A stretch of DNA of 54,685 nucleotides from Paracoccaceae bacterium (GTDB lineage Bacteria; Pseudomonadota; Alphaproteobacteria; Rhodobacterales; Rhodobacteraceae), in NCBI GenBank assembly GCA_020832655.1, contig JAFIEF010000016.1, positions 1 to 54,685 on the forward strand. The letters are read 5' to 3'. Under the pieces are notes generated by a model. The model was given only the letters and a program-made list of their open reading frames with translations, made no database searches and was not told where the DNA came from. Within the stretch, counting starts at the first letter, position 1; the number at the start of each line of letters is the position of its first letter. The position numbers and the translations under genes were made by a program. Below, piece after piece: positions 5,524-19,339 of this stretch.

Positions 5524-6309
5524 GTGACTGATGCGGGAACCCAGTATTCGGTGCCACCTGTGCATCGCGCCTTTCGGTTGTTACGCCATATCGCGCAGGG
5601 CGGGCAATGCCGCAATGCGTCTGCCACCGCGCGTGAACTGGGGCTGAACCGCACCACGCTGATCCGCCTGCTGCACAGCCTTGAAGCCGAAGGCATGATC
5701 GAATCGCTTGATGGAGGTGCAAGCTGGCAATTGGGGCCGGGCATGATCGCACTGGCCGCCGATGCGCTGAAATCGCGCAATGTCATCCGGCTGGCACAAC
5801 CCGTCATGGCCGCCCTGTCAACCAGTTTGGGGCTGTCCTCGCATCTGGGCATTCTGGACCGGCGCGAGATCATCTATCTGCTGCGCGAGGCACCAAACAC
5901 GCATCTGGTCAGCAATGTGCGCGAAGGCTCGCGCCTGCCCGCCCATGCCACCACGGTCGGGCGGGTGCTGCTGGCGCATCTTCCGACAGAGGCGCTGCGG
6001 CAGCTTTACAGCGACGCCGCGCTGGCGTCCTATACCGACAAGACCGCCACATCGCTGGACGCGCTGGAACAGCAGCTTGCGTCCGACAAGGCGCAGGGTC
6101 ATGCGTGGAGCTATGGCAATTTCGAAGCCGGGATCGGTTCCTGCGCTGCCCCGATCTTTGATCATCGCGGCATGGTCATCGCCGCGCTGAACGTCACCGG
6201 ACCAATGGCGCAGTTCGAGCCGGGCACCGCGCAGGCCGACCGCATCCGCACCTCGGTGATGCAGGCGGCCGATCAAATCTCGGTCGGGCTGGGCTATCAG
6301 GCGCGGTAA
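5524..6309 (+). CDS. IclR-family transcriptional regulator
   Basis: From a GTG start this is a 261-residue protein. An N-terminal winged helix spans about residues 12-72 (ASATARELGLNRTTLIRLLH is the helix-turn-helix), followed by an IclR effector-binding domain to about residue 255. The GTG is preferred because GGGGGG lies eight bases upstream; an in-frame ATG at 5491 lacks a ribosome site. IclR regulators usually control neighbouring aromatic or organic-acid catabolic genes. Here the gene converges on the sulfatase at the end of the TRAP/catabolic operon. The likely target is the divergent promoter region near 12.0-12.2 kb, which carries two matching palindromes. Confidence 0.88.
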   Translation: MTDAGTQYSVPPVHRAFRLLRHIAQGGQCRNASATARELGLNRTTLIRLLHSLEAEGMIESLDGGASWQLGPGMIALAADALKSRNVIRLAQPVMAALSTSLGLSSHLGILDRREIIYLLREAPNTHLVSNVREGSRLPAHATTVGRVLLAHLPTEALRQLYSDAALASYTDKTATSLDALEQQLASDKAQGHAWSYGNFEAGIGSCAAPIFDHRGMVIAALNVTGPMAQFEPGTAQADRIRTSVMQAADQISVGLGYQAR

Positions 6310-6333
6310 CAGGGCGCGCGCCGGGTCAGTATG

Positions 6334-7911
6334 TCAGGCACGCCCGGTCGGACAAAGCGACAAGTTGCGCAATGCGATCTGGCGGCGCGCAAGCGCGTCA
6401 AGCAGACGCAGCTTGATCGCGGCGGCGGCGTCGTCATCCCACAGATTGACCGTTTCGTCGGGGTCATCATTCAAGTTGTAAAGCTCGCCCCAGTCAGGGG
6501 CATCTTCCAGCAGCGACAGCCGCCAGCCTTCATGCACCAGTGTCGTGATCGCGCTGCGGGCATCGGCATCGCCAAAGACCGCGATACCCGGATCCTCGAT
6601 CAATACTGGCGGGGCCGCGCCCTCTTCGGCAAATATGTCCTGCCCCTGCATCCCGATCGGGATTTGCAGCCCCGCGCGCTGAAGCAGGGTCGGGGCGAAG
6701 TCAATCGCGCTGGCCTGCCGGTGCAGCACGCCTGATCGCGCGCGCGCGGCTGTGTCGCGCCACAAAAAGGGCACGCGGATCACGCTGCGATAATGCAGGC
6801 CCATTTTCAGAACCGTGCCATGATCGCCCATATAGTCGCCATGATCAGACATGAAGATGATGACTGTATCCTTGTCCAGCCCTTGCGCCTGCAGAGCCGC
6901 CAGAATCCGGCCTATCGCAGCGTCAATGAAGCTGATCGCGCCGTAATTCAGCGCCAGAATGCGGCGCATCGCGGCTTCGTCAAGTTGAAATGGCCAATGC
7001 GAATGGGGGTCGCTGCCGCCCATCCGATACGCCCGAAGCGCGGCTTCAGGCAGGTCATTGCGCGCCAGAAGCGGGGTGTGGAATGTTGCGGGCAGTTCCA
7101 CATCCGCCGGATCATACATTGACCACCATTTGCCCGGCGGCGTGAAAGGATGATGCGGGTCGGGGAAAGAGACCTGCAACAGGAACGGCGCTGCGCCGGT
7201 CTGCGCACCAAGGAAGCGCGCGGCCTCGTCAGCGATATAGCTGGTGGGGTGCAGCGCTTCGGGAAGGGCGGTCTGCCAGCATTGCGCAACACGGGTTTCC
7301 GGGTCGTCCAGCGCATTGGCCGGGCCGCGCAGGCTGTCGGGGTCGCGATGGCGCGCGCGCAGCCAGGACGTGTAGTGCCCCTCGACCTGATCGCCATGCC
7401 CGATGCACAGCCGGACATGGTCAAAACCGTAATAGGGCACCGGCAGCGCGTGGTCGGGATTGCGCGCCCAGAGGCTGCGCACCTCATGCGCGTATTCGGG
7501 ACCGTCGCGCTGCGTGCGTCTGGCGCGCAACACGGCGCTGTCGGGCACGGCACCAATGCCGCGCGGCTTGCGCGGCGGGGCGGGAATATCGGTCACATTC
7601 TGGAAATGCGCCTTGCCGATCAGCGCAGTGCGCCAGCCCGCCACGCGCAGCACATCGGCATAGGTGGTGGTATCAAGCGCCAGCGGAATCCCGTTCTGGC
7701 GGCAGCCATTGACGGTCGAGATCTGGCCCGAAGCCAGACAGGCGCGGTTCGGCTGGCAGATCGGGTTCGCGACATGGAAGCCTTCCAGCCGCAGCCCGTT
7801 GCGGGCGATGCTGTCCAGATGCGGGGTCTGGACAACGCGGTTGCCATAAGCGCCCAGATGGTCCCAGCGCTGCTGGTCGGTCATGATCACCAGAAAATTC
7901 GGACGCGTCAT
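6334..7911 (-). CDS. Sulfatase-family hydrolase (aryl-sulfatase-like), cytoplasmic
   Basis: This 525-residue alkaline-phosphatase-superfamily enzyme has metal ligands in MTDQQ (D12, Q13) and SDHGDYMGDHG. It has the formylglycine-type motif C52-Q-P-N-R56, fitting CxPxR although the common Ser before Arg is Asn. I chose the ATG at 7911 because AAGG lies seven bases upstream; a TTG at 7929 is possible. There is no signal peptide, so it should act in the cytoplasm on an imported substrate. The gene follows dctM by 14 bases as the last gene of the TRAP operon, which suggests that the transporter brings in a sulfate ester. A phosphonate monoester hydrolase activity cannot be excluded. Activity would need a formylglycine-generating enzyme encoded elsewhere. 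Confidence 0.87.
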   Translation of the reverse strand: MTRPNFLVIMTDQQRWDHLGAYGNRVVQTPHLDSIARNGLRLEGFHVANPICQPNRACLASGQISTVNGCRQNGIPLALDTTTYADVLRVAGWRTALIGKAHFQNVTDIPAPPRKPRGIGAVPDSAVLRARRTQRDGPEYAHEVRSLWARNPDHALPVPYYGFDHVRLCIGHGDQVEGHYTSWLRARHRDPDSLRGPANALDDPETRVAQCWQTALPEALHPTSYIADEAARFLGAQTGAAPFLLQVSFPDPHHPFTPPGKWWSMYDPADVELPATFHTPLLARNDLPEAALRAYRMGGSDPHSHWPFQLDEAAMRRILALNYGAISFIDAAIGRILAALQAQGLDKDTVIIFMSDHGDYMGDHGTVLKMGLHYRSVIRVPFLWRDTAARARSGVLHRQASAIDFAPTLLQRAGLQIPIGMQGQDIFAEEGAAPPVLIEDPGIAVFGDADARSAITTLVHEGWRLSLLEDAPDWGELYNLNDDPDETVNLWDDDAAAAIKLRLLDALARRQIALRNLSLCPTGRA

Positions 7912-7925
7912 GGCAACACCTTGCG

Positions 7926-9236
7926 TCAAAGCAGGCTGAGTGGCCAGGTCACGATCTGCGGGAACGCAAAGACGATTGCGATGGCCAGCAGGTCGCAGAT
8001 CACGAAGGGCATCGCGGCGCGGTAGATGTCACCCATTGTGGTGTTGCGCGGTGCAACTGCCTTCATCACGAACAGCGCCGCCCCGAATGGCGGAGAGGTC
8101 GCCCCGGTTTCAATCGCGATCAGGAACAGCACCCCGAACCAGACCGGGTTGTAGCCCAGTTCGATCACCACCGGGATGTAGATCGGCAGGGTGATCAGCA
8201 TGATCGGCAGCGGCCCCATGAAGGTGCCCAGAACGATGACCGAGCCGATCATGATCAGGATAAGCATATCCGGCGACACATCCTGCCCCATCACGAAATC
8301 GACCATGCCGAAGGTCGCGCCGGTAAAGGACAGAAGCTGGCTGAACCCCACCGCGCCCGCCACGATCAGCAGCACCATGGCCGAGATGTTCGACGCGCTG
8401 AACAGGCTTTCGCCAAAGACCTTGGCCGACAACCGGCCGCGAATGGCCGCCAGAAGCAGCGTTGTCACCGCGCCCATCGCCGCCGCTTCGGTCGGCGTGG
8501 CGATGCCCAGCAGGATCAACCCCACCACCGAGAACACCACCACCGACAGCGGCAGGATGTTGACAGTGGTTGCTTTCAGCTTTTCGCGCATGGGGGTTTC
8601 GGGCACGTCGAATGACGGGGCCAGATGCGGCTGCAACCAGCACCGGCCCCAGATATAGGCGGCATAGATCACCGCCATCAGCAGCCCCGGCAGGATGATC
8701 GCGATCAGGATCTGCGCAATCGAAAGCCGCCCGATAACGCCCAGGATCACCGCCAGCGACGAGGGCGGGATCATGATCGCCAGCCCCGCCGAGCCAAGGA
8801 TCGGCCCCAGTGACATCGGCTTGGCATAGCCGCGCTTTTCCATCTCTGGTACCAGCGCCGAGCCAAGCAGCGCGGTCGAGCCCATCGAATTGCCGGTCAG
8901 CGTGGAAAACAGCACACCACCGCCCACCGCCATGAAGGCCAGCCGCCCGCGCACGCGCCCGATCCATTTGTCGACCGTATCCATCAGGTCGATGGCAATG
9001 CGCGAGCGAAACATCACCTCGCCCATGATCATGAACAGCGCAATGGGTACCAGCGTGAAGGACATCAGCGCCGAAGCAGTGTTCGAGATCAGTTGCTCGA
9101 CCCCCACAAAGCCGCCAAGCAGCAGATAGGCCGCCACCGCATTGACCAGCAGGAAGGAAAACGCGACCGGCAATCCCAGCAGCATCAGCCCCAGAAGTCC
9201 GGCGATAACGACAGCGAAGGTGGTATACCATTCCAT
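7926..9236 (-). CDS. dctM: TRAP transporter large permease (DctM)
   Basis: This 436-residue protein has about 12 hydrophobic segments and typical DctM features, including SRIAIDLMDTVDKWIGRVRG, GNSMGSTALLGSALVPEM and the ETGATSPPFGAALFVMK region near residue 380. It forms the sodium-driven channel of a TRAP importer for organic acids. The ATG overlaps the dctQ stop by one base (9236), and the sulfatase follows closely, so the genes form one operon. TRAP substrates are mostly carboxylates or sulfonates; the enzymes around it suggest an aromatic acid, but this is inference. Confidence 0.93.
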   Translation of the reverse strand: MEWYTTFAVVIAGLLGLMLLGLPVAFSFLLVNAVAAYLLLGGFVGVEQLISNTASALMSFTLVPIALFMIMGEVMFRSRIAIDLMDTVDKWIGRVRGRLAFMAVGGGVLFSTLTGNSMGSTALLGSALVPEMEKRGYAKPMSLGPILGSAGLAIMIPPSSLAVILGVIGRLSIAQILIAIILPGLLMAVIYAAYIWGRCWLQPHLAPSFDVPETPMREKLKATTVNILPLSVVVFSVVGLILLGIATPTEAAAMGAVTTLLLAAIRGRLSAKVFGESLFSASNISAMVLLIVAGAVGFSQLLSFTGATFGMVDFVMGQDVSPDMLILIMIGSVIVLGTFMGPLPIMLITLPIYIPVVIELGYNPVWFGVLFLIAIETGATSPPFGAALFVMKAVAPRNTTMGDIYRAAMPFVICDLLAIAIVFAFPQIVTWPLSLL

Positions 9237-9754
9237 TACGTTCTCTCCCGCCGGTTGCTGATCGCAGCAATCAACTGATCCAGGAATTGCAGCGCCATCA
9301 GCCCGGTGCCGATGGGGAAGGCGGCGAAGATATACCAGCTTCGCGGTGCCATGACCGAGATGCGCCTTGTGCCCATCGCATATTGGTCAAGCACCAGTTG
9401 TACCCCCTTGATGGTCAGCACCACACAAAGCGCGCCACCCAGCACCGCGATGACAACGCGCAGCGCGCGCGCGGAATTTCCGCCAAGACCGGACAGAAAC
9501 AGATCGACCGTAACATGGCGGTTGTGCTGCAACAGGTAAGGGGCCGCCAGAAAGGTGATGTAAAGCAGCGAGTATTCACTGACTTCCGTCACCCAAAGCT
9601 GCGAGCGCCCGCCCATATAGCGCCAGCTGACTTCTGCGAAGATCATCATCGCCACGGTGAACAGAACAGCCGCCGCGATGATTGCCAGACCAAGATTCAG
9701 ATAGCCTGCGGCAGCCATCACGCGGCGATAGGTCGAAGCGATGGCAGCGGGCAT
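9236..9754 (-). CDS. dctQ: TRAP transporter small permease (DctQ)
   Basis: This 172-residue protein has four hydrophobic segments (about residues 18-40, 60-78, 98-118 and 135-155). The family-typical stretch SQLWVTEVSEYSLLYITFLA is followed by the charged HNRHVTVD. It forms the membrane complex with DctM, whose start codon overlaps this stop. The ATG is preceded by GGAG (CAGGAGACGACA), a good ribosome site. It lies 95 bases downstream of dctP, with two hairpins in the gap that probably lower expression relative to the binding protein. Confidence 0.9.
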   Translation of the reverse strand: MPAAIASTYRRVMAAAGYLNLGLAIIAAAVLFTVAMMIFAEVSWRYMGGRSQLWVTEVSEYSLLYITFLAAPYLLQHNRHVTVDLFLSGLGGNSARALRVVIAVLGGALCVVLTIKGVQLVLDQYAMGTRRISVMAPRSWYIFAAFPIGTGLMALQFLDQLIAAISNRRERT

Positions 9755-9849: not shown

Positions 9850-10818
9850 TCAGTCCACCATAAAGGCGCGCAACTCGTCGGCATGTGCGGGCGCACGCTC
9901 TGCCATTGCCGCCCAGGCGGCATCCAGCGCGGTTGTCAGATAGGCGTCTGCCGCCGCACCTTCGAGGGTGATCCGTTCAAACCCGGCGGCTTCCATCTGG
10001 GCATCGCCCATCGCCAGCATCTCATCCCACATGCCGTCGATTTCGGGGGCCAGATCGGTCATGATGAAGTCGACAACGCGCGATTGCAGATCGGCGTCAA
10101 GGCGTGCCCAGGCGCGCGGGTTGACCAGGATCGGGAACCCGGCACGATAGAAGCTCGGGGCGATGTAATGGGTCACCACACCCTTGAACTGCTCGGCCCA
10201 GCCAACCGAACCGCGCACGAAGCCATCCACCAGCCCGCGTTCCATTGCGGTGAAGATTTCCTCTTGCGGCATCACGATGGGTTCTGCCCCCAATGCGCGC
10301 ACGAAGGGCAGCACGGTCGGAAACACCCGGATGCGGCGATTGGCCAGTTCCTCGACGCTGTCAAGCGGACGATTCAGGAAGATGTAGAACTGCACTTCGC
10401 TGGCGGGGACTTCGCCGATCAGTTCCAGCCCGACCTCGCGGTGAATTTCTGCCATGCGCTCGAAGTAGCCGCCATCGCGGATTTCCTCGAAGGATTTCAG
10501 CGACAGGTTCGGCGTCGCTGCCGCAGGCAACAGCCCCTCATAGAAGCTGGGGCTGACAAAAGCCATGTCGATGGCGCCTGCACGCACCGCATTGCCCTGC
10601 TCGAAAGGCGGGATGACTTCCGGCCCGCCGCGCCAGTTGATCTGCAACTCGCCTTCGAATTCGGTGTTGATGCGTTCCACGAAGTGGTGGAAGCCTTGCG
10701 AGATATCGGCAGCGGCGGGCGCGAAGGATACGGCATTGAGCCGCACTTCAGCCAGTGCCGTGCCCGCCAGCGACAGCATCGCCGCGCCCATGAGGGTGGA
10801 TTTCAGAAGCGTTTTCAT
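9850..10818 (-). CDS. dctP: TRAP transporter substrate-binding protein (DctP)
   Basis: The 322-residue protein has a Sec signal peptide (MKTLLKSTLMGAAMLSLAGTALA, 23 residues) and a DctP solute-binding domain. Landmarks are GAIDMAFVSPSFYEG and the helix-strand NRRIRVFPT, where the central Arg normally pairs with the substrate carboxylate. I chose the ATG at 10818 because GGGAGACGAC precedes it; longer in-frame starts run into the neighbouring gene. It captures the substrate in the periplasm for DctQM. It lies 43 bases after the FAD monooxygenase gene and should share its promoter, linking uptake to ring hydroxylation. Confidence 0.9.
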   Translation of the reverse strand: MKTLLKSTLMGAAMLSLAGTALAEVRLNAVSFAPAAADISQGFHHFVERINTEFEGELQINWRGGPEVIPPFEQGNAVRAGAIDMAFVSPSFYEGLLPAAATPNLSLKSFEEIRDGGYFERMAEIHREVGLELIGEVPASEVQFYIFLNRPLDSVEELANRRIRVFPTVLPFVRALGAEPIVMPQEEIFTAMERGLVDGFVRGSVGWAEQFKGVVTHYIAPSFYRAGFPILVNPRAWARLDADLQSRVVDFIMTDLAPEIDGMWDEMLAMGDAQMEAAGFERITLEGAAADAYLTTALDAAWAAMAERAPAHADELRAFMVD

Positions 10819-10861: not shown

Positions 10862-11992
10862 TCAGGCCAGCTCTGCCGACCAGGCGTGGTAGCCATAAAC
10901 CCAATCGGCATTGCCCTTGGATTTAAGCCATTCATTGGCCAGCGAAGAGCGCTGGATTTCAGCGGTGCGCGGAATGCGCGCATTCTCATAGCGTTGCAGG
11001 GCGGCGGGCAGATCGGCGCTCGTGCAGCCTTCGACCGCGCGGGCCAGAACCACCGCATCCTCGATTGCCATGCAGGCGCCCTGCGCCATGAACGGCACCA
11101 TAGGATGCGCGGCATCGCCCAGCAGCGTCACGCGACCCACGGACCAGTGCTCCATCGGTTCGCGCACATGCAGCGCCGAACGGGTGACACTGTCACAGGC
11201 ATTTAGCAGGGCGCGGGCCTCGGGGTGGAAATCGGCATAGGCAGCGCGCAGTTCTTCAATGTCGCCCGGCAGGGTCCAGCCCTCTTCGGTCCAGCCTTCC
11301 TGCGCATTGGTGGCAAAGACGAAGATTTCCGCGCCATGCGTCAGCGGGAAAGTCACGATCTGACGGTCAGGTGTCGGCCCCCACCATTTGGTGAAGGCAT
11401 CAAGATCACGGATATCGCCTGCACGTTCGCGCGGGAATACGGCGCGCCATGACACAAGCCCGGTGAATTTCGGCGCATCCGGCCCGAACAGCGCGTTGCG
11501 CACGGCGGAATGTATCCCATCCGCGCCGATGACCAGATCAAAGCTTTCCTGCTGCCCGTCATCAAAGCGCACATGGGCCTTCCCGGCGTCCTGGGTGATA
11601 CCGGTGACGCGGGTGCCGAAGCGGATCACGCCTTCGGGCAGCTTTTCTTCCAGCGCGCCCAGCAGATCGGCGCGGTGGATGGTCAGTTGCGGTGCGCCAT
11701 AGCGCGATTCGGCCTCGGTGCTCATGGGCAGGCGCGAGGTTTCTTCGCCGGTATCCCAGGTGCGGCTGATGCGATGGGTGGGGCGCGCGGCATTCTCGCG
11801 CAGCTTTTCGCCCACCCCAAGGCGGTCAAGCGCATGAACGGCATTGGGGGTCAGGTTCACATCAGCGCCAACACGGCCGAACCGGGGTGCCTGTTCATAT
11901 ATCGTGACCTCGTGGCCCTGCGCGCGCAGCGCGATGGCCGCAGCCATGCCACCCACGCCCCCGCCGCAGATTGCGATAGAAAAAGCTGTCAT
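10862..11992 (-). CDS. FAD-dependent aromatic monooxygenase (salicylate / 6-hydroxynicotinate hydroxylase family)
   Basis: This 376-residue class A flavoprotein hydroxylase has an N-terminal dinucleotide site (GGGVGG at residues 10-15, acidic E33), the DLVIGADGIHSAVR motif and the flavin-binding GDAAHPMVPFMAQGA near residue 297. The family uses NAD(P)H and oxygen to hydroxylate, often with decarboxylation, aromatic acids such as salicylate or 6-hydroxynicotinate. The start at 11992 follows GGAGG with five bases spacing. It is the first gene of the leftward operon, directly behind a strong promoter, ahead of the TRAP genes. The C-terminal WVYGY stretch recalls NicC-type enzymes, but the 2,5-dihydroxypyridine genes nicX and nicF are absent, so the substrate stays open. 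Confidence 0.87.
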   Translation of the reverse strand: MTAFSIAICGGGVGGMAAAIALRAQGHEVTIYEQAPRFGRVGADVNLTPNAVHALDRLGVGEKLRENAARPTHRISRTWDTGEETSRLPMSTEAESRYGAPQLTIHRADLLGALEEKLPEGVIRFGTRVTGITQDAGKAHVRFDDGQQESFDLVIGADGIHSAVRNALFGPDAPKFTGLVSWRAVFPRERAGDIRDLDAFTKWWGPTPDRQIVTFPLTHGAEIFVFATNAQEGWTEEGWTLPGDIEELRAAYADFHPEARALLNACDSVTRSALHVREPMEHWSVGRVTLLGDAAHPMVPFMAQGACMAIEDAVVLARAVEGCTSADLPAALQRYENARIPRTAEIQRSSLANEWLKSKGNADWVYGYHAWSAELA

Positions 11993-12015
11993 CCTGGCCT
12001 CCGTTGCCCTGTCGG

Positions 12016-12027
12016 ATATGTTCATAT
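12016..12027. promoter_or_regulatory. Palindromic operator candidate, leftward promoter
   Basis: ATATGTTCATAT is a 5-base dyad with two central bases, at about +9 to +20 of the predicted leftward transcript. Read on the reverse strand with its flank (TGCAAATATGAACATAT), it resembles the site at 12160-12177 beside the rightward promoter. A regulator bound here would block initiation or clearance. The IclR protein encoded at 5.5 kb is the obvious candidate. Confidence 0.5.
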
Positions 12028-12042
12028 TTGCACGTATCGTTC

Positions 12043-12072
12043 ATAATATTTCGACCCCGACAGGACTGTCAA
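12043..12072 (-). promoter_or_regulatory. Leftward sigma-70-type promoter of the monooxygenase/TRAP operon
   Basis: On the reverse strand a perfect -35 TTGACA (12072-12067) is followed after 18 bases by -10 TATTAT (12048-12043). The predicted transcript starts near 12036, about 44 bases before the monooxygenase ATG. The match is unusually good for this GC-rich genome. Confidence 0.65.
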
Positions 12073-12127
12073 CCCCTGATTTCGGGCAGAGCGCAAAAGA
12101 AACCTGCCCGCCATCGGCATTCTGCAA

Positions 12128-12156
12128 TTGACAAGCCCCATTGTCGTGTTTATCAA
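12128..12156 (+). promoter_or_regulatory. Rightward promoter of the cupin-ALDH operon
   Basis: A perfect TTGACA (12128-12133), a 17-base spacer and TATCAA (12151-12156, four of six consensus bases) lie about 100 bases upstream of the cupin gene. Transcription would start near 12163, leaving an untranslated leader of some 85 bases. Confidence 0.6.
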
Positions 12157-12166
12157 TATTGCACAT

Positions 12167-12176
12167 TATGATCATA
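12167..12176. promoter_or_regulatory. Palindromic operator candidate, rightward promoter
   Basis: TATGATCATA is a perfect 10-base palindrome at about +4 to +14 of the predicted rightward transcript. Its context TGCACATTATGATCATAT (12160-12177) matches the leftward site on the opposite strand, and both fit TATGNNCATA. The mirrored arrangement suggests one repressor controls both operons. Confidence 0.5.
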
Positions 12177-12249: not shown

Positions 12250-12804
12250 ATGACCGCAGCCCCCATCAAATTCCCCTCTATCGAACCCGAAGACGTGCAA
12301 ATCCCCAACGGCAAGACGCTTGCGGAATGGGTCGAGAGCCGCATTGCGCGCTATGAAACCCGCACGCTTGACTGGGATGCGCTGAAATTCCAGGCCGATC
12401 ATGACCCCAAATACCGCCGCGCCCAGATGCGCTATATCGGCACTGGCGCCACCGGCGTCACGGATGACGAGAATGTCGTCCCGGCCGAGCATTTCACCTT
12501 CTCGACTATGGTTCTGCCTGCGGGCTGCGAAGGACCGCTGCATATTCACCGCGACGCAGAGGAAGTGTTCTTCATCCTTAAGGGTCACAAGATCCGGCTG
12601 TTCATCGAACATAAGGGAGAGATGGTCGAGACCGTTCTGACCGAGCGCGACATCATCTCGGTGCCGCCGGGGCTGTATCGTGGCCTGCGCAATGAAGGGA
12701 TCGAAGAAGCCCTGATGTGCGTGATGATCGGCAACCCCAAGCCGGTGACGCCCACCTATCCCGAAGACCATCCGGTCTCGAAGATCAAGCGTCCGTCGAA
12801 ATAA
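12250..12804 (+). CDS. Cupin-domain protein
   Basis: This 184-residue protein has one conserved cupin barrel. Motif 1 is PLHIHRDAEEVFFILKG (residues about 96-112), with two His and a Glu as likely metal ligands; motif 2 lies near ISVPPGLYRGLRN. The ATG at 12250 is chosen because GGAG lies eight bases upstream; an ATG at 12244 is too close to it. It is the first gene of the rightward catabolic operon. Single-domain cupins of this kind can be dioxygenases, isomerases, decarboxylases or small-molecule sensors. The role here, perhaps a second ring-modifying step, is unknown. Confidence 0.82.
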   Translation: MTAAPIKFPSIEPEDVQIPNGKTLAEWVESRIARYETRTLDWDALKFQADHDPKYRRAQMRYIGTGATGVTDDENVVPAEHFTFSTMVLPAGCEGPLHIHRDAEEVFFILKGHKIRLFIEHKGEMVETVLTERDIISVPPGLYRGLRNEGIEEALMCVMIGNPKPVTPTYPEDHPVSKIKRPSK

Positions 12805-12819: not shown

Positions 12820-13635
12820 ATGCGCATGCAGATGACCAATGGCTTGGCCTGGCGGGAACGCCCCGGCACCGGGCCGGTGCTGGTCTGCCTGCACGGCATC
12901 GGCTCTGGGCCGCACGGCTTTGACGCGCTGGCAGCGCATCTGCCCGACGATATACGCATGATCGCCTGGTCGGCCCCCGGCTATGGCGACAGCCAGCCCC
13001 TTGCGCGCGACTGGCCCGTGGCGCGCGACTATGCCGAGGCGCTGGCCGCGCTGGTCGCGGCGCTGGGGCTGGGGCGGTTTCACCTGCTGGGCCATTCGCT
13101 GGGCACGCTGATCGCGGCAGACTACGCCGCGCACCATCCGCAGCAGGTGGCGGGGCTGATCCTTGTCTCCTGCGCGCAAGGCATGGGGGTGCCACCCGGC
13201 GCCGACCTGCCCGCGAAGGCAGCGGCGCGGCTTTCCGATCTGGAACAGATGGGGCCGCTGGCCTTTGCCCGCGCACGCGCGCCGCGGCTGGTTCACGAAC
13301 CTGCCGCGCATCCCGATCTTGTCGCCGCGATTGCCGACACAATGGCAAAAATCCGGCTTCCGGGCTACGCTCAGGCGGTGCGGATGCTGTCCTCGGGCGA
13401 TCTGGCGGGCGCAGTGCGCAGCCTTCGCGCGCCGACCACGATTGTCGTGGGTGCGCAAGACATCGTCACCCCGCCTGCGCAATCGCGCGGCGCATGGGAC
13501 GCGCTGCCCCCTGCCGCACGACGCCATTTCGCGCTGCTGCCGGAAACCGGCCACGCAGCCCCCCAACAAGCACCCGCGGCACTGGCCCGGATCATCACAA
13601 AGGCCATTCGCCAGCAACAGGGAGAGGAACAATGA
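12820..13635 (+). CDS. Alpha/beta-fold hydrolase
   Basis: This 271-residue hydrolase has the oxyanion motif LHGIGSG (from residue 24), nucleophile S93 in GHSLG, and likely triad partners D214 (GAQD) and H245 (ETGH). In meta-cleavage pathways such enzymes hydrolyse C-C bonds of the ring-fission product; other members are esterases or lactonases. Its position just before the extradiol dioxygenase gene, with a four-base ATGA overlap, supports action on the dioxygenase product. Three closely spaced in-frame ATGs (12820, 12826, 12832) leave the exact start uncertain. There is no signal peptide. Confidence 0.88.
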   Translation: MRMQMTNGLAWRERPGTGPVLVCLHGIGSGPHGFDALAAHLPDDIRMIAWSAPGYGDSQPLARDWPVARDYAEALAALVAALGLGRFHLLGHSLGTLIAADYAAHHPQQVAGLILVSCAQGMGVPPGADLPAKAAARLSDLEQMGPLAFARARAPRLVHEPAAHPDLVAAIADTMAKIRLPGYAQAVRMLSSGDLAGAVRSLRAPTTIVVGAQDIVTPPAQSRGAWDALPPAARRHFALLPETGHAAPQQAPAALARIITKAIRQQQGEEQ

Positions 13636-14558
13636 CCGAACTGGTTCGCGTCGCAGCATTGCGCGGCATCGTCATGCGGGCACCGGGCATCACCGCCACC
13701 CGCGATTTCTATATCGAGAATTGGGGCGTGTCCCTTGCACATGAAGAAGACGGCACCGTCTGGCTGCGCGGCACCGGGACCGAGCCTTTCATCTATGGGC
13801 TGAAGGACGGCCCGGTCTATGGCATCGAATATGTCCATTTCGCCATGCCCGACCGCGCCGCGATGGCCGCGCTGCACGCCCAGGTCGTGGCTGCCGGGGC
13901 GACAGTGCTGGGCGATCCCGGCCCGTTTGATGATTTTGCCGGCGGTTGGGGATTCGAGATGCTCGACCCCGATGACCGCCGCCTGCGTTTTCGCTGCGAA
14001 GCGCGCGACACTGCGCCGCTTGACGAATGGGCGCGGCCGAAAAAGGTCAGCCATGTGGTGCTCAACACCGCCGATATGGACGGGCTGGAAGCATGGTATC
14101 GCGATGTGCTGGGCTTTCGCGTATCGGATTACAGCGCCGATCAGATGGTGTTCCTGCGCTGCGCGTCAGACCATCATTCGATTGCGCTGGTGCGCGGGCA
14201 ATATCCCAGCGTCAACCATGTCGCATTCGAATTGCCGACGCTGAATGAATTCATGCGCTCGATCGGGCGGATGAAACAAAAGGGCATCGTGCCCACCTGG
14301 GGGCCGGGACGACACGGGCCGGGGGACAACCCCTTTGCCTATTTCTGCTCGCCCTCGGGCTTCGTGATCGAATTTACCAGCGAGTTGCAGCAGATCGACG
14401 AAGACACCCATGAAGCGCAGATCTGGTCGCGCGACGACCCCGAGGCGATGGACCGCTGGATGACCGCAGGCCCGCCGACATCTGCGCAACGCGCCATCAT
14501 GCAGGGCCGCCCCGATCCGGGCTGGCCGGAACTGCGCACCGGAAAGGACGCGACATGA
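13632..14558 (+). CDS. Type I extradiol ring-cleavage dioxygenase (two-domain VOC)
   Basis: The 308-residue protein has two vicinal-oxygen-chelate modules. The C-terminal one holds the Fe(II) triad H141 (KKVSHVV), H196 (VNHVAFE) and E247 (FVIEFTSE), as in 2,3-dihydroxybiphenyl and catechol 2,3-dioxygenases. The N-terminal module lacks the ligands, which is usual for type I extradiol enzymes. The start at 13632 follows GGAGAGGAACA and overlaps the hydrolase stop by four bases. It should open a catechol-like ring next to the two hydroxyls. A C-terminal extension of about 50 residues after the last ligand is family-typical. The exact diol substrate cannot be assigned. Confidence 0.88.
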   Translation: MTELVRVAALRGIVMRAPGITATRDFYIENWGVSLAHEEDGTVWLRGTGTEPFIYGLKDGPVYGIEYVHFAMPDRAAMAALHAQVVAAGATVLGDPGPFDDFAGGWGFEMLDPDDRRLRFRCEARDTAPLDEWARPKKVSHVVLNTADMDGLEAWYRDVLGFRVSDYSADQMVFLRCASDHHSIALVRGQYPSVNHVAFELPTLNEFMRSIGRMKQKGIVPTWGPGRHGPGDNPFAYFCSPSGFVIEFTSELQQIDEDTHEAQIWSRDDPEAMDRWMTAGPPTSAQRAIMQGRPDPGWPELRTGKDAT

Positions 14559-15340
14559 AACCCTATGAAGGTATGAGCACGGTCGTGACCGGCGGCTCCT
14601 CTGGCATCGGGCTGGCCACTGTGCGGCTATTGCTGGAACAGGGCGCGCGCGTGGCGCTTTGCGCCCGCAATGAAGGGCGGCTGAAGGACGTGGCACAGCT
14701 ACTGGCGCGCGATCATGGCGATGACCGGGTTCTGGCGCGCGCCTTTTCGGTGCTTGACCCAAGCGCAGTGCAGGGTTTCGCGCAAGAGGTCGAAAGCCGC
14801 TTCGGGGGCTGCGATCTGCTGGTGAACAATGCCGGACAGGGGCGTCAATCAACCTTTGCCGACACGAATGATGAAGACTGGCGCGCCGAATATGATCTGA
14901 AGCTTTTCAGCCAGATCCATCCGATCCGGGCCTTTCTGCCCATGCTGCGCAGCGCCAGGGGTGCGATTGTGGCGGTGAATTCATTGCTGGCCTATCAGCC
15001 AGAACCGCACATGGTCTGCACCTCCTCGGCGCGGGCCGGGGTGCAGAACCTGCTAAAATCGCTGAGCATCGAACTTGCCCCCGAAGTGCGGGTGAATTCG
15101 GTGCTGCTGGGTCTGGTCGGATCCGGCCAGTGGACGCGCCGCTTTGCCGAACGCCCCGACCAGTCGGTCAGCCGCAGCGAATGGTATGACGCGCTGGCGC
15201 GCGACAAGGGCATTCCGCTGGGCCGTCTGGGTGAACCGGAAGAAGCGGCATCGGCAATAGCCTTTCTGGGCAGCCGCGCCGCAAGCTACATCACCGGTGC
15301 GCAGCTCGATGTTTCGGGCGGCCTGTCACGGCATATCTGA
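14555..15340 (+). CDS. SDR-family protein with non-canonical active site
   Basis: This 261-residue Rossmann protein has the cofactor motif TGGSSGIG (residues 12-19), NNAG (91-94) and a C-terminal GAQLDVSGG, all typical of classical SDRs. The catalytic set is altered: Ser143 is present, but at the usual Tyr and Lys positions (S+13, S+17) the sequence VCTSSAR puts Thr156 and Arg160. It may therefore bind NAD(P) without classical dehydrogenase chemistry, or use other residues. It is coupled to the dioxygenase by a four-base overlap and followed by the ThDP enzyme 12 bases on. A dehydrogenase, isomerase or lyase-like role on a pathway intermediate is possible. Confidence 0.85.
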   Translation: MKPYEGMSTVVTGGSSGIGLATVRLLLEQGARVALCARNEGRLKDVAQLLARDHGDDRVLARAFSVLDPSAVQGFAQEVESRFGGCDLLVNNAGQGRQSTFADTNDEDWRAEYDLKLFSQIHPIRAFLPMLRSARGAIVAVNSLLAYQPEPHMVCTSSARAGVQNLLKSLSIELAPEVRVNSVLLGLVGSGQWTRRFAERPDQSVSRSEWYDALARDKGIPLGRLGEPEEAASAIAFLGSRAASYITGAQLDVSGGLSRHI

Positions 15341-15352: not shown

Positions 15353-17062
15353 ATGGAAAACCTGCTCGATCAGCCGCGCGCCCAGTCCGCCACCAGCACC
15401 TCGCCCACCCGCCCAGAGAGTGTGGGAGAATACATCGCCCGCTATCTGGCAGAGATCGGGGTGACAACGATTTTCGGTGTGATCTCTATCCACAACATGC
15501 CGATCCTGGACGCTGTGGCGCATCAGCGCCGCATCCGCTTTGTGCCTGCGCGCGGTGAAGCCGGGGCGATGAACATGGCCGATGCCTATGCGCGTGTGTC
15601 GGGCAGGCTGGGTGTGGTGCTGACCTCAACCGGCACGGCGGCGGGAAATGCCGCTGGCGCGCAGGTCGAGGCGCTGACCGCAGGCACGCCGCTTTTGCAT
15701 ATCACCTCGACCGTGGACAGCCAGTTCATGGACCGTGACCGCGCGCCGATCCATGATGTGCCGCGCCAGCCCGACATGCTGAAGGGCATTTCCAAGGCCT
15801 ATATCCGCATGTGGGATGCGGGCAGCGCCATCGGCGCGCTGACGGCGGCGGTTTCCGCGGCAATCAGCGCGCCCAGCGGCCCTGTGGCGCTGGAAATCCC
15901 GGTCGATGTGCAGCGCAGCCAGTTGGCACGCGCGGCGCGCATTCATGCGCCTGTCGCGCAACGCCCCCGCGCGGCGGCAGCTGCGGTGCAGGTCATGGCC
16001 GAGCGCATCCGCGCCGCCAAGCGCCCGATCCTGTGGCTGGGCGGTGGCGCGCGCGGGGCCACGGCAGAGGCCGAAGAGCTGGTGCGGCGCGGCTTTGTTG
16101 CTGTTACCTCGGTCAATGGGCGCGGGGTGGTGTCGGAAGAAAACCCCGCCAGTCTGGGCGCGTTCAACATGACCCCCGAGGCACAGGCGCTTTACCAGAA
16201 ATCCGACCTGCTGCTGGTGGTCGGCTCGCGCCTGCGCGGCAACGAGACGCTCAACAACATGATGCAGCTTCCCTGGCCGCTGATGCAGATCGACGCCGAC
16301 CCCTATCAGGGGGGACGCAATTATCCGGTGGATGTGTTTGCACATGGCGATGCTGCCGACACGCTGCATGCCCTTCTGGACCTGCTGCCCGAGCGTTTGG
16401 CCGTCGATCCCGACCACGCCTTCGAGGCCGCGATGGCGCGCGCCACCAGCGAAGGCGTCATGCGCACCAAGATGGGCCCCTATGAGGTGATGGCGCAGGC
16501 GCTGATGGAACGCGTCGGCCCCGGCCATCATCCGTGGGTGCGCGATGTCACCATCTCCAACTCGACCTTCGGCAATCGCTTTGTCAAGATCGCCGCGCCC
16601 CGGCTGGGCGTTCATGCGTTGGGCGGCGGGATCGGGCAAGGCGTGGCAATGGGCATTGGCGCGGCACTGGCCAGCGCCGGGCCGAAAGCGATTGTGCTGA
16701 TCGGCGATGGCGGCACGCAGCTTGGCATTGCCGAGATGATCACGGCGGTCGAGGAAAAGGCACCGCTGGTCTTCGTGCTGATGAATGATCAGGCCTATGG
16801 CGTGATCCGCAACATCCAGGATGCGCAATATGACAGCCGACACCATTATTCGGCGCTGCACACGCCCGATTTCGCCACGCATTGCGCAGCGATCGGCCTG
16901 TCGCATCGGCGCATTGACGATATCGCGCAATTCGCCCCTGCCCTTGATGCGGCGCTGGCTGCGGATGGGCCGCAATTGATCGAAGTGGACATGCTGGCCA
17001 TCGGCCCATTTGCCGAAAGCTTCTCTGGCCCGCCAGCGGGTGCGGCAGGGAACCGGTTCTGA
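15353..17062 (+). CDS. Thiamine-diphosphate-dependent enzyme (acetolactate synthase / decarboxylase-like)
   Basis: The 569-residue protein has the three-domain POX/ALS layout: N-terminal pyrimidine-binding domain with catalytic Glu69 (ARGEAGAMNMADAYAR), central domain about 200-330, and C-terminal domain with the ThDP/Mg motif GDGG (about residue 451) ending near the Asn of LMNDQAYG. Such enzymes decarboxylate 2-oxo acids or make and break bonds next to a ketone. There is no regulatory small subunit gene nearby and the gene lies in a catabolic operon, so biosynthetic acetolactate synthase is unlikely. A likely job is converting a 2-oxo acid from ring cleavage to an aldehyde for the downstream ALDH. 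AAGGAAG precedes the ATG. Confidence 0.88.
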   Translation: MENLLDQPRAQSATSTSPTRPESVGEYIARYLAEIGVTTIFGVISIHNMPILDAVAHQRRIRFVPARGEAGAMNMADAYARVSGRLGVVLTSTGTAAGNAAGAQVEALTAGTPLLHITSTVDSQFMDRDRAPIHDVPRQPDMLKGISKAYIRMWDAGSAIGALTAAVSAAISAPSGPVALEIPVDVQRSQLARAARIHAPVAQRPRAAAAAVQVMAERIRAAKRPILWLGGGARGATAEAEELVRRGFVAVTSVNGRGVVSEENPASLGAFNMTPEAQALYQKSDLLLVVGSRLRGNETLNNMMQLPWPLMQIDADPYQGGRNYPVDVFAHGDAADTLHALLDLLPERLAVDPDHAFEAAMARATSEGVMRTKMGPYEVMAQALMERVGPGHHPWVRDVTISNSTFGNRFVKIAAPRLGVHALGGGIGQGVAMGIGAALASAGPKAIVLIGDGGTQLGIAEMITAVEEKAPLVFVLMNDQAYGVIRNIQDAQYDSRHHYSALHTPDFATHCAAIGLSHRRIDDIAQFAPALDAALAADGPQLIEVDMLAIGPFAESFSGPPAGAAGNRF

Positions 17063-17063
17063 C

Positions 17064-17855
17064 ATGCGGCTTGGGGTGATCGGTTACGGCGCGATTGCGC
17101 GCGAATTGCTGTCGGTGCTGGCGCAGGAAGGCGCGATGCCCGAAGCCGTGATCGTGCTGATGCGCGAGCGGACACAGGCAAACTGCCAGATGCCGGGGCT
17201 GGAAACGGTCGGCACGGCGGGCGAACTGGTCGCGGCCCGCCCTGATCTGGTGATCGAATGCGCGGGCGCATCGGCCGTGCGGGAACATGTCGGCACCTGC
17301 CTTTCGGGTGGCATCAACACGGTCATCGCCTCGGTGGGCGCGCTGGCCGATGGCGGGCTGCATGACGCGCTGCGCGGCGCCGCGCGGGGCGGCAAAAGCC
17401 GCCTGATCCTGCCCGCCGGGGCGCTGGGCGGGGTCGATCTTCTGGCCGCGCTGCGCCCGTCGGGCATAGAAGAACTGATCTATACCGGGCGCAAACCGCC
17501 CGCCGCCTGGCGCGGCAGCCCGGCTGAAAAGCTGGTCGATCTTGATCATCTGGACGCGCCGGTGACCTTTTTTGAAGGCGATGCGGCACAGGCCGCGCGC
17601 GATTTCCCGAAAAACGCCAATGTCGCGGCCACGCTGGCGCTTGCCGGTCCCGGCTTTGCCGCGACACGGGTGCATCTGGTCGCCGATCCCGGCGCAAGCT
17701 GCAATCTGCACGAGGTGAGTGTCCGTGCAGGTGTCGGCAGTTTCCATATCCGCATCGAGGGCAAACCCGCCCCCGACAATCCCCGCTCTTCGCTGACGAC
17801 GGTCTATTCGCTGGCGCGCGAGGTGCTGAACCACAGCCGCGAGGTGGCGATATGA
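17064..17855 (+). CDS. L-aspartate dehydrogenase-like protein (DUF108 family)
   Basis: This 263-residue protein has an N-terminal Rossmann motif GVIGYGAIA (residues 4-12) and a C-terminal DUF108 domain with FPKNANVAATLALAG and the NLHEV stretch, where the His is a candidate active-site residue of the family. Known members interconvert oxaloacetate plus ammonia and L-aspartate, or feed NAD synthesis (NadX). NadA and NadC genes are not here. It sits between a ThDP enzyme and an aldehyde dehydrogenase, with a four-base overlap to the latter, so a catabolic role, perhaps on an amino or imino intermediate, is more likely. ATG 17064 is one base after the upstream stop. Confidence 0.83.
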   Translation: MRLGVIGYGAIARELLSVLAQEGAMPEAVIVLMRERTQANCQMPGLETVGTAGELVAARPDLVIECAGASAVREHVGTCLSGGINTVIASVGALADGGLHDALRGAARGGKSRLILPAGALGGVDLLAALRPSGIEELIYTGRKPPAAWRGSPAEKLVDLDHLDAPVTFFEGDAAQAARDFPKNANVAATLALAGPGFAATRVHLVADPGASCNLHEVSVRAGVGSFHIRIEGKPAPDNPRSSLTTVYSLAREVLNHSREVAI

Positions 17856-19339
17856 CCAGAATTTCCTTGCCCGATGGACGCCTGTTCATTGGCGGCGAAT
17901 GGCAACAGGGAAGCGGGGCCGAGATCGCCTCGGTCTACCCGGCCGATGGCAGCGTCAACATGGTGTTGCGCGGGGCCAGCCGCAGCGATGGAGAACTGGC
18001 CATAAGGCGCGCGCAGGCGGCGCAGGCCGATCCGGCCTGGCGCGGCATGAAGGCGCATGAACGCGCGCGGATCCTGCATCGCATTGCCGACGGGATCGAG
18101 TCCGCGGCCGAGCGCATCGCCCATATCCAGACCCGCGACACAGGCAAGACGCTGCGCGAAACCAGCGCGCTGGTGGCCTCTGCCACTGGCACGTTTCGCT
18201 ATACCGCAGCCGCGCTGGAAACACTGGATGATGCGCTGACCGTGCCGCGCGGCGATTACCTGACGATGTCGGTTTATGAACCCATCGGGCTGGTTGGGGC
18301 TATCACGCCCTGGAACTCGCCCATCGCATCGGACGCGCAGAAAGTGGCACCGGCGCTGGCCGCAGGCAATGCCGTGTTGCTAAAGCCTGCAAGCTGGTCG
18401 CCGCTGGTGGCGCTGGAACTTGCCCGCATCGTCGAAGCAGCGGGCCTGCCCAAGGGGTTGTTCTCTGTCCTGCCCGGCGCCGGGCGCGAGATCGGCAATC
18501 TGCTGGTCGAACACCCTGCCATCGGCAAGATCAGCTTCACCGGCGGCACCGAAACCGGCAGGATGCTGGCACGTCAGGCGGCTGAAAAGCTGATGCCGGT
18601 CTCGTTGGAACTGGGTGGCAAATCACCCAGCATCGTGTTCGCGGATGCCGATATCGAGCAGACCATTGCCGGGGTTCTGTATGGGGTGTTTTCCTCCAGC
18701 GGGCAAAGCTGCATTGCGGGCACAAGGCTGTTTGTGCAGCGTTCCATCTATGATGAATTTGTCGCGCGGCTGGTCAGCGCGACGAAAGCGCTGAAAACCG
18801 GCGATCCGTTTGATCCCGAAACGCAGGTGGCACCGCTGGTTCATGCCGATCACCGCGACGCCGTGGCCGCAATGGTCGAACAGGCCCGCGCAGAAGGGGC
18901 GGAACTGCTATGTGGCGGCGCAGCGCCCGAAGCTCTGGCGCAAGGCGCGTATTACCTGCCCACCATTCTGGCCGGTCTGCCCAATACCGCCACGATCTGC
19001 CGCGAGGAAGTCTTTGGCCCGGTGCTGTGCGTGCTGCCCTTCGAGGACGAGGCCGATGTCATCGCCCAGTCCAATGACAATGCCTATGGTCTGGCCTGCG
19101 GGATCTGGACCCGCGATTTCCCGCGCGCCTGGCGCGTGGCGCGCGCCATCACGACCGGCACGGTCTGGATCAACACCTACAAGCAGTTTTCCATCGCCAC
19201 GCCTTTTGGTGGCGAAAAGGATGCCGGGCTTGGCCGCGAGAAGGGGCGCGAAGGAATTCGCGCCTATATGGCGCAGAAATCCGTCTATGTGGATCTGACC
19301 GGTCGTCCCCTGCCCTGGGCGCGGCTTGCTGACAACTGA
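17852..19339 (+). CDS. NAD(P)-dependent aldehyde dehydrogenase
   Basis: This full-length 495-residue ALDH has a cofactor site (TPWNSPI, about residue 150), catalytic Glu253 (LELGGK) and nucleophile Cys287 (SGQSC). The C-terminal TPFGGEKDAGLGREKG motif is typical of the betaine/gamma-aminobutyraldehyde/hydroxymuconic-semialdehyde side of the superfamily. It is the last gene of the rightward operon and probably oxidises an aldehyde made by the ThDP enzyme, or a semialdehyde from ring cleavage, to the acid. The four-base overlap with the AspDH-like gene shows coupled translation. A strong hairpin follows the stop. Confidence 0.92.
   Translation: MTRISLPDGRLFIGGEWQQGSGAEIASVYPADGSVNMVLRGASRSDGELAIRRAQAAQADPAWRGMKAHERARILHRIADGIESAAERIAHIQTRDTGKTLRETSALVASATGTFRYTAAALETLDDALTVPRGDYLTMSVYEPIGLVGAITPWNSPIASDAQKVAPALAAGNAVLLKPASWSPLVALELARIVEAAGLPKGLFSVLPGAGREIGNLLVEHPAIGKISFTGGTETGRMLARQAAEKLMPVSLELGGKSPSIVFADADIEQTIAGVLYGVFSSSGQSCIAGTRLFVQRSIYDEFVARLVSATKALKTGDPFDPETQVAPLVHADHRDAVAAMVEQARAEGAELLCGGAAPEALAQGAYYLPTILAGLPNTATICREEVFGPVLCVLPFEDEADVIAQSNDNAYGLACGIWTRDFPRAWRVARAITTGTVWINTYKQFSIATPFGGEKDAGLGREKGREGIRAYMAQKSVYVDLTGRPLPWARLADN

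Follow-up and report, generated by a model that had tools for sequence, protein, structure and literature searches.

A conserved aromatic-acid degradation module in a Paracoccaceae bacterium, tentatively linked to kynurenate and xanthurenate

Genetic Organization of the Island

The window, i.e., the whole stretch of 54,685 nucleotides analyzed here (contig JAFIEF010000016.1 of a Paracoccaceae bacterium), carries at positions 5491-19339 an island of 12 intact genes arranged as two divergent operons, plus a gene for an IclR-family regulator; its features are compiled in Table 1. All 13 open reading frames begin at an ATG, are free of internal stops and lie densely packed. On the plus strand, the order is cupin, alpha/beta hydrolase, extradiol dioxygenase (EDO), SDR, ThDP enzyme, L-aspartate-dehydrogenase-like enzyme (AspDH-like) and aldehyde dehydrogenase (ALDH), with successive gaps of +15, -4, -4, +12, +1 and -4 bases. 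The minus-strand operon is transcribed in the order FAD monooxygenase (FMO), DctP, DctQ, DctM and sulfatase, with gaps of +43, +95, -1 and +14 bases. This layout and the gene families had been proposed in the original prediction, and both are borne out by the reading frames, the gaps and the Pfam and NCBIfam profiles.

Table 1. Features of the island, with positions in the window
Feature	Position	Strand	Evidence and remarks
IclR-family regulator (PcaR/PobR/BhcR-like)	5491..6309	+	Pfam IclR_C 7e-40; NCBIfam TIGR02431 2e-46, below cut-off
Cytosolic-type sulfatase-family hydrolase	6334..7911	-	Pfam Sulfatase 3e-40; directly behind dctM
TRAP large permease DctM	7926..9236	-	Pfam DctM 1.7e-70
TRAP small permease DctQ	9236..9754	-	Pfam DctQ 4e-26
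TRAP solute-binding protein DctP	9850..10818	-	Pfam DctP 1e-21; NCBIfam NF037995 over cut-off
Group A FAD monooxygenase (FMO)	10862..11992	-	5eow E 3.2e-81, residues 5-375; alternative start 12025
Divergent promoter region	11993..12249		Consensus match only
Module-specific cupin	12250..12804	+	AlphaFold model nearest Ni-quercetinase QueD; alternative start 12178
Alpha/beta hydrolase, PcaD-like	12820..13635	+	Pfam Abhydrolase_1 1e-24
VOC-type extradiol dioxygenase (EDO)	13632..14558	+	3b59 E 1e-59; HpaD/catechol 2,3-dioxygenase profiles below cut-off
Non-canonical SDR, TxxxR for YxxxK	14555..15340	+	NCBIfam PRK07062 over cut-off
ThDP-dependent 2-oxoacid decarboxylase-like enzyme	15353..17062	+	NCBIfam PRK07064 over cut-off; 5-guanidino-2-oxopentanoate decarboxylase profile second
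L-aspartate-dehydrogenase-like enzyme	17064..17855	+	NCBIfam PRK13303.1-3 and 1-2 over cut-off
Aldehyde dehydrogenase, BADH/HpaE-like	17852..19339	+	Pfam Aldedh 1.6e-164

The regulator gene stands apart from both operons and is convergent to the sulfatase gene; IclR neighbours are present in 47 of the 49 full-length related loci. The divergent gap holds a near-consensus sigma-70-like site on the minus strand (TTGACA-18-TATTAT, 12072-12043) and a 12-nt inverted repeat, 83% complementary, at 12078-12115. Promoter-like sites are not enriched in this region over shuffled sequences (3 found, mean 3.1 in shuffles).

Enzymes of the Two Operons

The nearest solved relative of the FMO, which displays the motifs GGGVGG, GADG and GDAAH, is 6-hydroxynicotinate 3-monooxygenase (NicC), an enzyme acting on an N-heteroaromatic compound. 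The sulfatase carries the C-x-P-x-R activation motif of type I formylglycine sulfatases as C-Q-P-N-R at Cys52, with Cys, Asn and Arg conserved in 8/8 and Pro in 7/8 sequences. Its gene is a recurrent partner of related TRAP systems, where it likewise lies behind dctM, usually directly after the permease gene, and it occurs in 7 of 13 TRAP loci vs 1 of 79 other loci. A search of the source genome with profile PF03781 alone gave no match for an FGE-type sulfatase-activating enzyme, and this counts against the reading preferred below.

The catalytic residues of the plus-strand enzymes are well kept: Ser and His of the alpha/beta hydrolase in 66/66 sequences, the metal ligands His, His and Glu of the EDO in 47/47, Glu69 of the ThDP enzyme in 89/89, the His of N-x-H in the AspDH-like protein in 67/67, and Cys and Glu of the ALDH in 62/62. 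The SDR lacks the classical YxxxK pair and shows TxxxR instead, both in the island and in 65 of 69 rows of the alignment, with the other four lying outside the module; this fits chemistry different from the usual dehydrogenation of alcohols. The AlphaFold model of the cupin finds its best fold matches in quercetinase and 5-nitrosalicylate dioxygenase, i.e., in cleavers of heteroaromatic and aromatic rings. Its relatives include 23 plasmid records that match it at 60% identity or more over nearly the full length, 20 of which also appear among the ThDP-enzyme matches listed. The PDB relatives of the AspDH-like protein are the AspDH enzymes of T. maritima and A. fulgidus. EDOs 35-39% identical to that of the island lie in other aromatic clusters.

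Distribution of the Module

The downstream half of the island, the seven genes from cupin to ALDH, is shared by members of the alpha-, beta- and gammaproteobacteria, in many cases with the gene order kept, and a more distant version of the block is found in Streptomyces. Non-pathogenic carriers include Pseudosulfitobacter sp. DSM 107133, Nitratireductor and Paracoccus sp. MA, and the P. aeruginosa genes PA3504-PA3514 probably represent the module as well. The entry oxygenase is exchangeable: it is an FMO in some carriers, and others use a Rieske oxygenase accompanied by a YxxxK dehydrogenase of its own; at the level of enzyme class, one or the other is encoded in 49/49 full-length related loci. 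The Rieske protein of the other carriers is nearest to carbazole dioxygenase. At the thresholds used, the AspDH-like gene is present in 41/49 full-length loci and missing nearby in 8/49, the EDO is missing nearby in 9/49 and the ALDH in 12/49. A search for co-occurrence across genomes, put forward with the original prediction, found the set to recur widely with an exchangeable entry enzyme, and it is not peculiar to the source genome.

Of the congeners, one shares both divergent operons and a second shares part of them, the two contigs stopping inside the sulfatase gene; congener G179 retains every part that its contig covers. A clean insertion site did not emerge, as CobW is not beside CysNC in the examined stretches of the island-less congeners G161, G166 and G187.

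In Acinetobacter baumannii, the available portions of two reports (PMC5757984, PMC3758355) list A1S_0956, 0957 and 0958 among the genes that mucin raises, and A1S_0945, 0946 and 0956 among those whose expression is confined to biofilm; these portions name no substrate. Going by gene names and order, these tags probably denote the equivalent cluster. The kynU cluster of A. baumannii, as far as described in the part of PMC9162365 consulted, is a different one. The original prediction would have been refuted by a published pathway of known substrate that the genes match in order; none was found in the literature searched, among the matches listed, and within this scope, the module represents a widespread, conserved aromatic pathway without an assigned function.

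A Possible Kynurenate/Xanthurenate Pathway

We tentatively propose, giving it somewhat less than an even chance, that the module is dedicated to an aromatic acid with a benzo-fused ring system and nitrogen, in all likelihood of the kynurenate type (4-hydroxyquinoline-2-carboxylate), and in this bacterium to xanthurenate (the 8-hydroxy form) and probably its sulfate ester. Kynurenate degradation involves the enzymes EC 1.14.99.2, 1.3.1.18 and 1.13.11.10, and its later intermediates carry oxopropenyl, oxopropyl and formylethyl groups in turn, ending in carboxyethyl-dihydroxypicolinate. A kynurenate route via 7,8-dihydroxykynurenate was reported for Pseudomonas by the group of Hayaishi (Horibata 1961; Taniuchi 1963). 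The original prediction held that sulfatase, cupin and AspDH-like enzymes in one extradiol pathway match no familiar pathway; that they belong to one pathway still stands, yet the steps can be ordered to fit this route.

Every substrate and product of the following scheme is one that we infer, while the genes, their families, conservation and order, the entry exchange and the sulfatase-TRAP linkage are observed. The TRAP transporter would import the substrate, and the cytosolic sulfatase would then remove the sulfate from the hydroxy compound. The FMO may hydroxylate xanthurenate at C7 to 7,8-dihydroxykynurenate, which in other carriers would be made from kynurenate by the Rieske oxygenase and the YxxxK dehydrogenase. 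The EDO would cleave this catechol between C8 and C8a, the TxxxR SDR, proposed to be the reductase of the ring-opened intermediate, would reduce the C=C bond of the side chain, the ThDP enzyme would decarboxylate the 2-oxoacid, and the ALDH would oxidize the aldehyde to 5-(2-carboxyethyl)-4,6-dihydroxypicolinate. The remaining N-ring could be opened by the cupin and/or the alpha/beta hydrolase, the latter proposed as a lactam/lactone or C-C hydrolase, and the AspDH-like enzyme may handle the nitrogen, as an alpha-imino or alpha-amino acid arising from that opening.

Several observations argue for this assignment. The gene order EDO-SDR-ThDP-AspDH-ALDH is, AspDH excepted, the order of the intermediates, and genes of the right class for the 2-oxoacid decarboxylase and aldehyde dehydrogenase steps are present with their catalytic residues kept. 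An entry oxygenase of either type at every full-length locus is as expected if arene and hydroxy form converge on one catechol, and the frequency of the AspDH-like gene, with its invariant His, implies nitrogen. The affinities of the FMO and the Rieske protein, the fold of the cupin, the altered catalytic pair of the SDR, the conservation of the block across proteobacterial classes and the bias of the sulfatase gene toward TRAP loci point the same way, whereas the loci without EDO, ALDH or AspDH nearby argue against it.

Linkage to kynurenine genes was checked in three ways, through module neighbours, same-genome positions in 36 carriers and TDO neighbourhoods, and none was supportive. TDO or kynureninase lies within 20 kb of the module in 0/36 carriers, the nearest at 24 kb, which speaks against kynurenate, and no kynurenine-pathway family occurs among the 25 of 72 neighbour families listed (93 proteins, chosen from 126 listed of 378). 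Three of the 4 Acetobacteraceae genomes whose ThDP enzyme reaches at least 66% identity contain TDO, vs 12 of 116 others; no weight is given to this pattern since the four genomes are near relatives and ThDP proteins of 43-50% identity also occur there. The idea of TDO without kynureninase in Roseomonas was dropped, as a divergent kynureninase-like gene lies beside TDO in the one genome checked.

A more specific version is rather doubtful: that the module is the kynurenate/xanthurenate branch of tryptophan catabolism, here in a marine and saline variant in which a hydroxyquinoline acid would be imported in sulfated form by the TRAP transporter and freed by the cytosolic sulfatase coupled to it, with the TxxxR SDR, the module-specific cupin and the AspDH-like enzyme taking steps for which no enzyme has been described.

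Alternative Readings

Another nitrogen-containing aromatic, e.g., an indole-, pyridine- or aminobenzoate-type acid, could be handled by the same logic, for the AspDH-like gene and the NicC-like FMO indicate nitrogen and no particular ring system; a separate cupin, a hydrolase and a non-canonical SDR after the EDO suggest, on the other hand, a second ring or a long side chain, and we hold such a substrate to be unlikely. The nicotinate pathway was discarded, as the island has no other member of it besides the NicC-like FMO. The poor fit to nicotinate, gentisate and classical meta routes noted in the original prediction holds, with further nicotinate genes as well as hydratase and aldolase missing. 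Absence of the latter two from the island's 13 proteins also weakens the idea that the substrate is a monocyclic aromatic acid and the route a modified meta pathway, where a ThDP decarboxylase and ALDH replace them and the AspDH-like enzyme feeds a side reaction (e.g., NAD synthesis or an unrelated reduction). It gains from the resemblance of EDO and ALDH to HpaD and HpaE above all other curated families, or nearly so, and loses by the AspDH-like gene being a constant operon member across diverse taxa; we consider it improbable.

The naringenin fde operon, a first lead as to identity, contains a cyclase and is not known to contain an AspDH; it was set back by this and kept as a rival. In a flavonoid- or chromone-type pathway like fde (Herbaspirillum) or ifc (Variovorax), the FMO would hydroxylate the A-ring at C8, the glyoxalase-type EDO would open that ring and the cupin the pyranone. 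According to the accessible part of PMC11069340, these three enzymes act in that order and an alpha/beta hydrolase lies in the cluster; the island, too, combines FMO, glyoxalase-type EDO and cupin, the predicted structure of the latter being nearest quercetinase. The AspDH-like enzyme would, however, have no obvious role where nitrogen is absent, and the main text of PMC11069340 mentions no thiamine, aspartate or aldehyde dehydrogenase and describes no Rieske entry. Such a pathway is quite unlikely here; it and the monocyclic route are the chief competitors of the kynurenate reading. Single components missing in several loci might finally suggest chance neighbours, with TRAP-sulfatase unit, aromatic pathway and AspDH gene acting separately. 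This already disfavoured view is very improbable in light of the ordered co-occurrence repeated in unrelated lineages and of G179 keeping the parts on its contig; the grouping exceeds chance because the plus-strand block recurs in order elsewhere and the congener operons are alike.

Should the kynurenate assignment be true, the island would supply genes for enzymes of tryptophan breakdown described some sixty years ago, to which, as far as we know, no sequences have yet been assigned. Animals, plants and algae produce kynurenate and xanthurenate as signalling and redox-active metabolites, and it would be of ecological and medical interest if marine roseobacters, Klebsiella, Acinetobacter and Burkholderia possessed a module for their removal. 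If the substrate differs, the island still brings to light an SDR family whose catalytic pair is altered, as well as a new cupin, and places an AspDH-like enzyme in a pathway.

Comparison with Known Systems

With classical meta-cleavage (xyl/nah/bph/hpa) the island shares a VOC-type EDO, an alpha/beta hydrolase and an HpaE-like ALDH; in contrast, it does without dienoate hydratase and aldolase and has the ThDP enzyme, non-canonical SDR, cupin and AspDH-like enzyme. The AspDH-like protein resembles NadX-type L-aspartate dehydrogenase in family profile, the putative catalytic His and the N-P-[KR]-[ST]-S region, as judged from sequence, but its gene sits in a catabolic operon and not with nadA/nadC; a characterized AspDH of P. 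aeruginosa presumably adjoins the SDR Q9HYA2. Compared by the descriptions in the parts of PMC11069340 and PMC11303751 consulted, ifc and fde also use FMO, glyoxalase-type EDO, cupin and alpha/beta hydrolase and open the ring beside a hetero-ring, whereas their substrates are flavonoids and AspDH-like, ThDP enzyme and Rieske entry go unmentioned there. Lumichrome (riboflavin) catabolism of Nocardioides, in the section of PMC12746152 available, is likewise a single N-heteroaromatic pathway that combines a Rieske dioxygenase with an EDO, a ThDP decarboxylase and a cupin; it differs in its P450, amidases, xanthine-oxidase-type enzyme and aldolase, in a two-subunit ThDP enzyme acting on the heterocycle, and in having no AspDH.

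The Pseudomonas kynurenate/xanthurenate ("quinoline") pathway is biochemistry for which we know of no genes. Its arene (di)hydroxylation, extradiol cleavage, reduction, 2-oxoacid decarboxylation and aldehyde oxidation, with the nitrogen left in the second ring, would have their counterparts in the island, which differs in adding a sulfatase and TRAP uptake.

Gene content and conserved residues

The island predicted to hold twelve genes in two divergent operons plus an IclR regulator comprises thirteen intact genes, which are compiled in the table. The family assignments of the original prediction are borne out by Pfam and NCBIfam profiles. Most island proteins do not reach the named-equivalog cut-offs of NCBIfam, so that the matches define class only, not substrate; those over the cut-off are all generic, namely PRK07062 for the short-chain dehydrogenase (SDR), PRK07064 for the 2-oxoacid decarboxylase-like enzyme (ThDP), PRK13303 for the L-aspartate-dehydrogenase-like protein (AspDH), and TRAP_S1.

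Features of the island and of related loci (L-numbers, with their own coordinates)
Feature	Record	Position	Strand	Remark
Island, 13 intact genes	window	5491-19339		IclR regulator and two divergent operons
Operon, transcription order	window		-	FMO-dctP-dctQ-dctM-sulfatase
Operon	window		+	cupin-hydrolase-EDO-SDR-ThDP-AspDH-ALDH
CysNC (fused sulfate adenylyltransferase/APS kinase) and CysD-like PAPS-reductase-domain protein	window	19433-22233	-	sulfate activation genes directly adjoining the island
ThDP gene	V. nigripulchritudo, L007	10745-12419		annotated as two genes
Small recombinase-like HTH protein (PF20552)	L004	6437-6736		adjoins Rieske gene, as in many loci
GltD-like flavoprotein, flavodoxin, pentapeptide-repeat protein	L004	17732-20042		end of Rieske locus; equivalents in other marine alphaproteobacteria
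Cupin piece	Novosphingobium sp. KA1 plasmid, NC_008308.1 and NZ_CP021249.1	97118-97234		21% of query, 74% identity
Divergent kynureninase-like protein	Roseomonas-group genome, L111	6356-7501		adjoins TDO; not called by TIGR01814

Key catalytic residues are kept throughout the related loci: the AspDH histidine (67/67), the ligands of the extradiol dioxygenase (EDO, 47/47), Cys and Glu of the aldehyde dehydrogenase (ALDH, 62/62), the ThDP glutamate (89/89), Ser and His of the hydrolase (66/66) and the sulfatase cysteine (8/8). The special feature of the SDR is the replacement of the classical YxxxK pair by Thr and Arg, with TxxxR in 65 of 69 aligned rows; the other four, two SxxxR, one YxxxK and one unrelated, all lie outside the module, and the Rieske-associated SDR is YxxxK in the four rows listed. 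Its closest solved structure is 3lf1 (Q9HYA2), which we take to be PA3507 of P. aeruginosa, Q9HYA4 presumably being PA3505, a biochemically studied L-aspartate dehydrogenase. If these identities are correct, P. aeruginosa carries the module; the literature search found no publication naming two of these tags.

Recurrence of the module

The island is accessory within its genus, the cupin being found in 2 of 35 genomes. On one contig (G179), which stops inside the sulfatase, all parts present keep the window's order; the other (G190) carries SDR to sulfatase only. Across genomes the co-occurring dioxygenase, ThDP and AspDH set recurs, often with identical order. The plus-strand order is the same on plasmids of Nitratireductor sp. 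OM-1, Pseudosulfitobacter sp. DSM 107133, Paracoccus sp. MA and Vibrio nigripulchritudo (EDO identity 78, 75, 73 and 63%, respectively), and the clusters of the first three also contain, at another position, a further cupin unlike this one; another V. nigripulchritudo record matches the ThDP gene unbroken. Remoter versions occur in Caballeronia, Cupriavidus, Novosphingobium, Acinetobacter and Klebsiella, with still weaker ones in Streptomyces.

GTDB species genomes were scanned with a ThDP alignment, and of 543 confirmed matches the 80 highest-ranking were retained. The top match is a Natronohydrobacter MAG (92%), which makes this group the probable origin of the window. Of the 80 loci, 49 span 21.5 kb or more; in these, tblastn with fixed thresholds found an entry oxygenase, either a Rieske oxygenase or an FAD monooxygenase (FMO), in 49 cases, hydrolase in 48, SDR and IclR in 47 each, AspDH in 41, either EDO type in 40, either cupin type in 38 and ALDH in 37. 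Loci without nearby EDO and ALDH are mostly from freshwater Rhizobiales/Beijerinckiaceae, and those without AspDH include Roseomonas relatives; the missing genes may lie elsewhere, have diverged below threshold, or reflect a different pathway end. A freshwater Rhizobiales group (L049, L053, L066, L067, L071, L078) has another divergent layout, with an ABC transporter and Rieske protein opposite cupin-SDR-ThDP-AspDH, and its full-length members lack both EDO and ALDH in the vicinity. In Klebsiella pneumoniae and K. aerogenes (L099, L100) the Rieske version sits between speB and an MFS/porin region. The GltD-like flavoprotein, flavodoxin and pentapeptide-repeat protein that close the Rieske loci of marine alphaproteobacteria are an uncommon way to deliver electrons to such an oxygenase.

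The cupin matched 32 plasmid records, 23 near full length at at least 60% identity, two as short fragments at 74% and the others lower. Twenty of the 23 are also among the listed ThDP matches; the other three are Klebsiella, and both of the two examined carry the module. The Novosphingobium sp. KA1 piece is perhaps a remnant. Among the best 40 of 390 Rieske matches, 26 records have at least 44% identity and the next has 28%.

The sulfatase belongs to the module. Among 92 loci mapped by heuristic gene calls, it occurs in 7 of 13 with the TRAP transporter (dctPQM) versus 1 of 79 without (Fisher p = 1.5e-6, kinship ignored), and this single exception is only ~38-40% identical to the others. Six of the seven TRAP loci that have it place it immediately behind dctM, and in Limimaricola it is separate; the top plasmid match beyond these loci is 45%. 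ThDP rows with sulfatase belong to one clade of Rhodobacterales, to another of marine gammaproteobacteria, or to the branch of the window itself. As regards entry, FMO stands alone in four cases among the window and the Rhodobacterales loci with sulfatase; two gammaproteobacterial loci with sulfatase rely on a Rieske oxygenase alone, and another combines it with FMO. No signal peptide was recognised in the sulfatase by eye, and a profile search for sulfatase activation gave no PF03781 match in the window's genome.

Proposed pathway and comparison with known systems

The module is real, conserved and catabolic, and almost certainly encodes one coherent ring-cleavage pathway. Two alternative entry enzymes suggest that an arene and its hydroxy derivative converge on one catechol. 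In classical pathways extradiol cleavage is followed by a hydratase and an aldolase, whereas the module has SDR, ThDP and ALDH, in that order. Pseudomonas kynurenate degradation reportedly passes through 7,8-dihydroxykynurenate, which yields 5-(3-carboxy-3-oxopropenyl)-4,6-dihydroxypicolinate and then the oxopropyl, 2-formylethyl and 2-carboxyethyl compounds. As a substrate, kynurenate/xanthurenate is the leading candidate, though a tentative one. The Rieske oxygenase or FMO would give the common catechol, EDO would cleave it, and SDR, ThDP and ALDH would convert oxopropenyl to oxopropyl, 2-formylethyl and 2-carboxyethyl in gene order. A dihydroxypicolinate ring would be left over, calling for a ring-opening enzyme and one for an alpha-imino or alpha-amino acid; cupin and/or hydrolase could open the ring, and AspDH, whose natural chemistry this is, could take the resulting acid. 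At TM scores of ~0.4, the predicted cupin structure (mean pLDDT 78) has Ni-quercetinase as its nearest match and resembles 5-nitrosalicylate dioxygenase as well. FMO is closest to 6-hydroxynicotinate 3-monooxygenase (NicC), with Asn at the site of the active-site histidine, presumably His47.

Counting against the kynurenate proposal, kynurenine-pathway genes lie within 20 kb of the module in none of 36 carriers; TDO is present in 28 of these genomes and kynureninase over cut-off in 20, the window's own genome having both. The original prediction had found no matching pathway for sulfatase, cupin and AspDH combined with extradiol cleavage. No publication assigning the set was found among the matches listed in a search of mainly open-access papers; the set is unassigned in passages from PMC11303751, PMC5757984, PMC3758355, PMC9162365, PMC11354673, PMC5610271 and PMC12746152, and PMC4440368 held no matching passage. 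A flavonoid-type pathway would follow identical logic with oxygen as the ring heteroatom; AspDH implies nitrogen, which makes this less probable, the separation resting on that argument and not on sequence comparison. Like the module, the ifc cluster employs FMO, a glyoxalase-type EDO and a cupin (PMC11069340).
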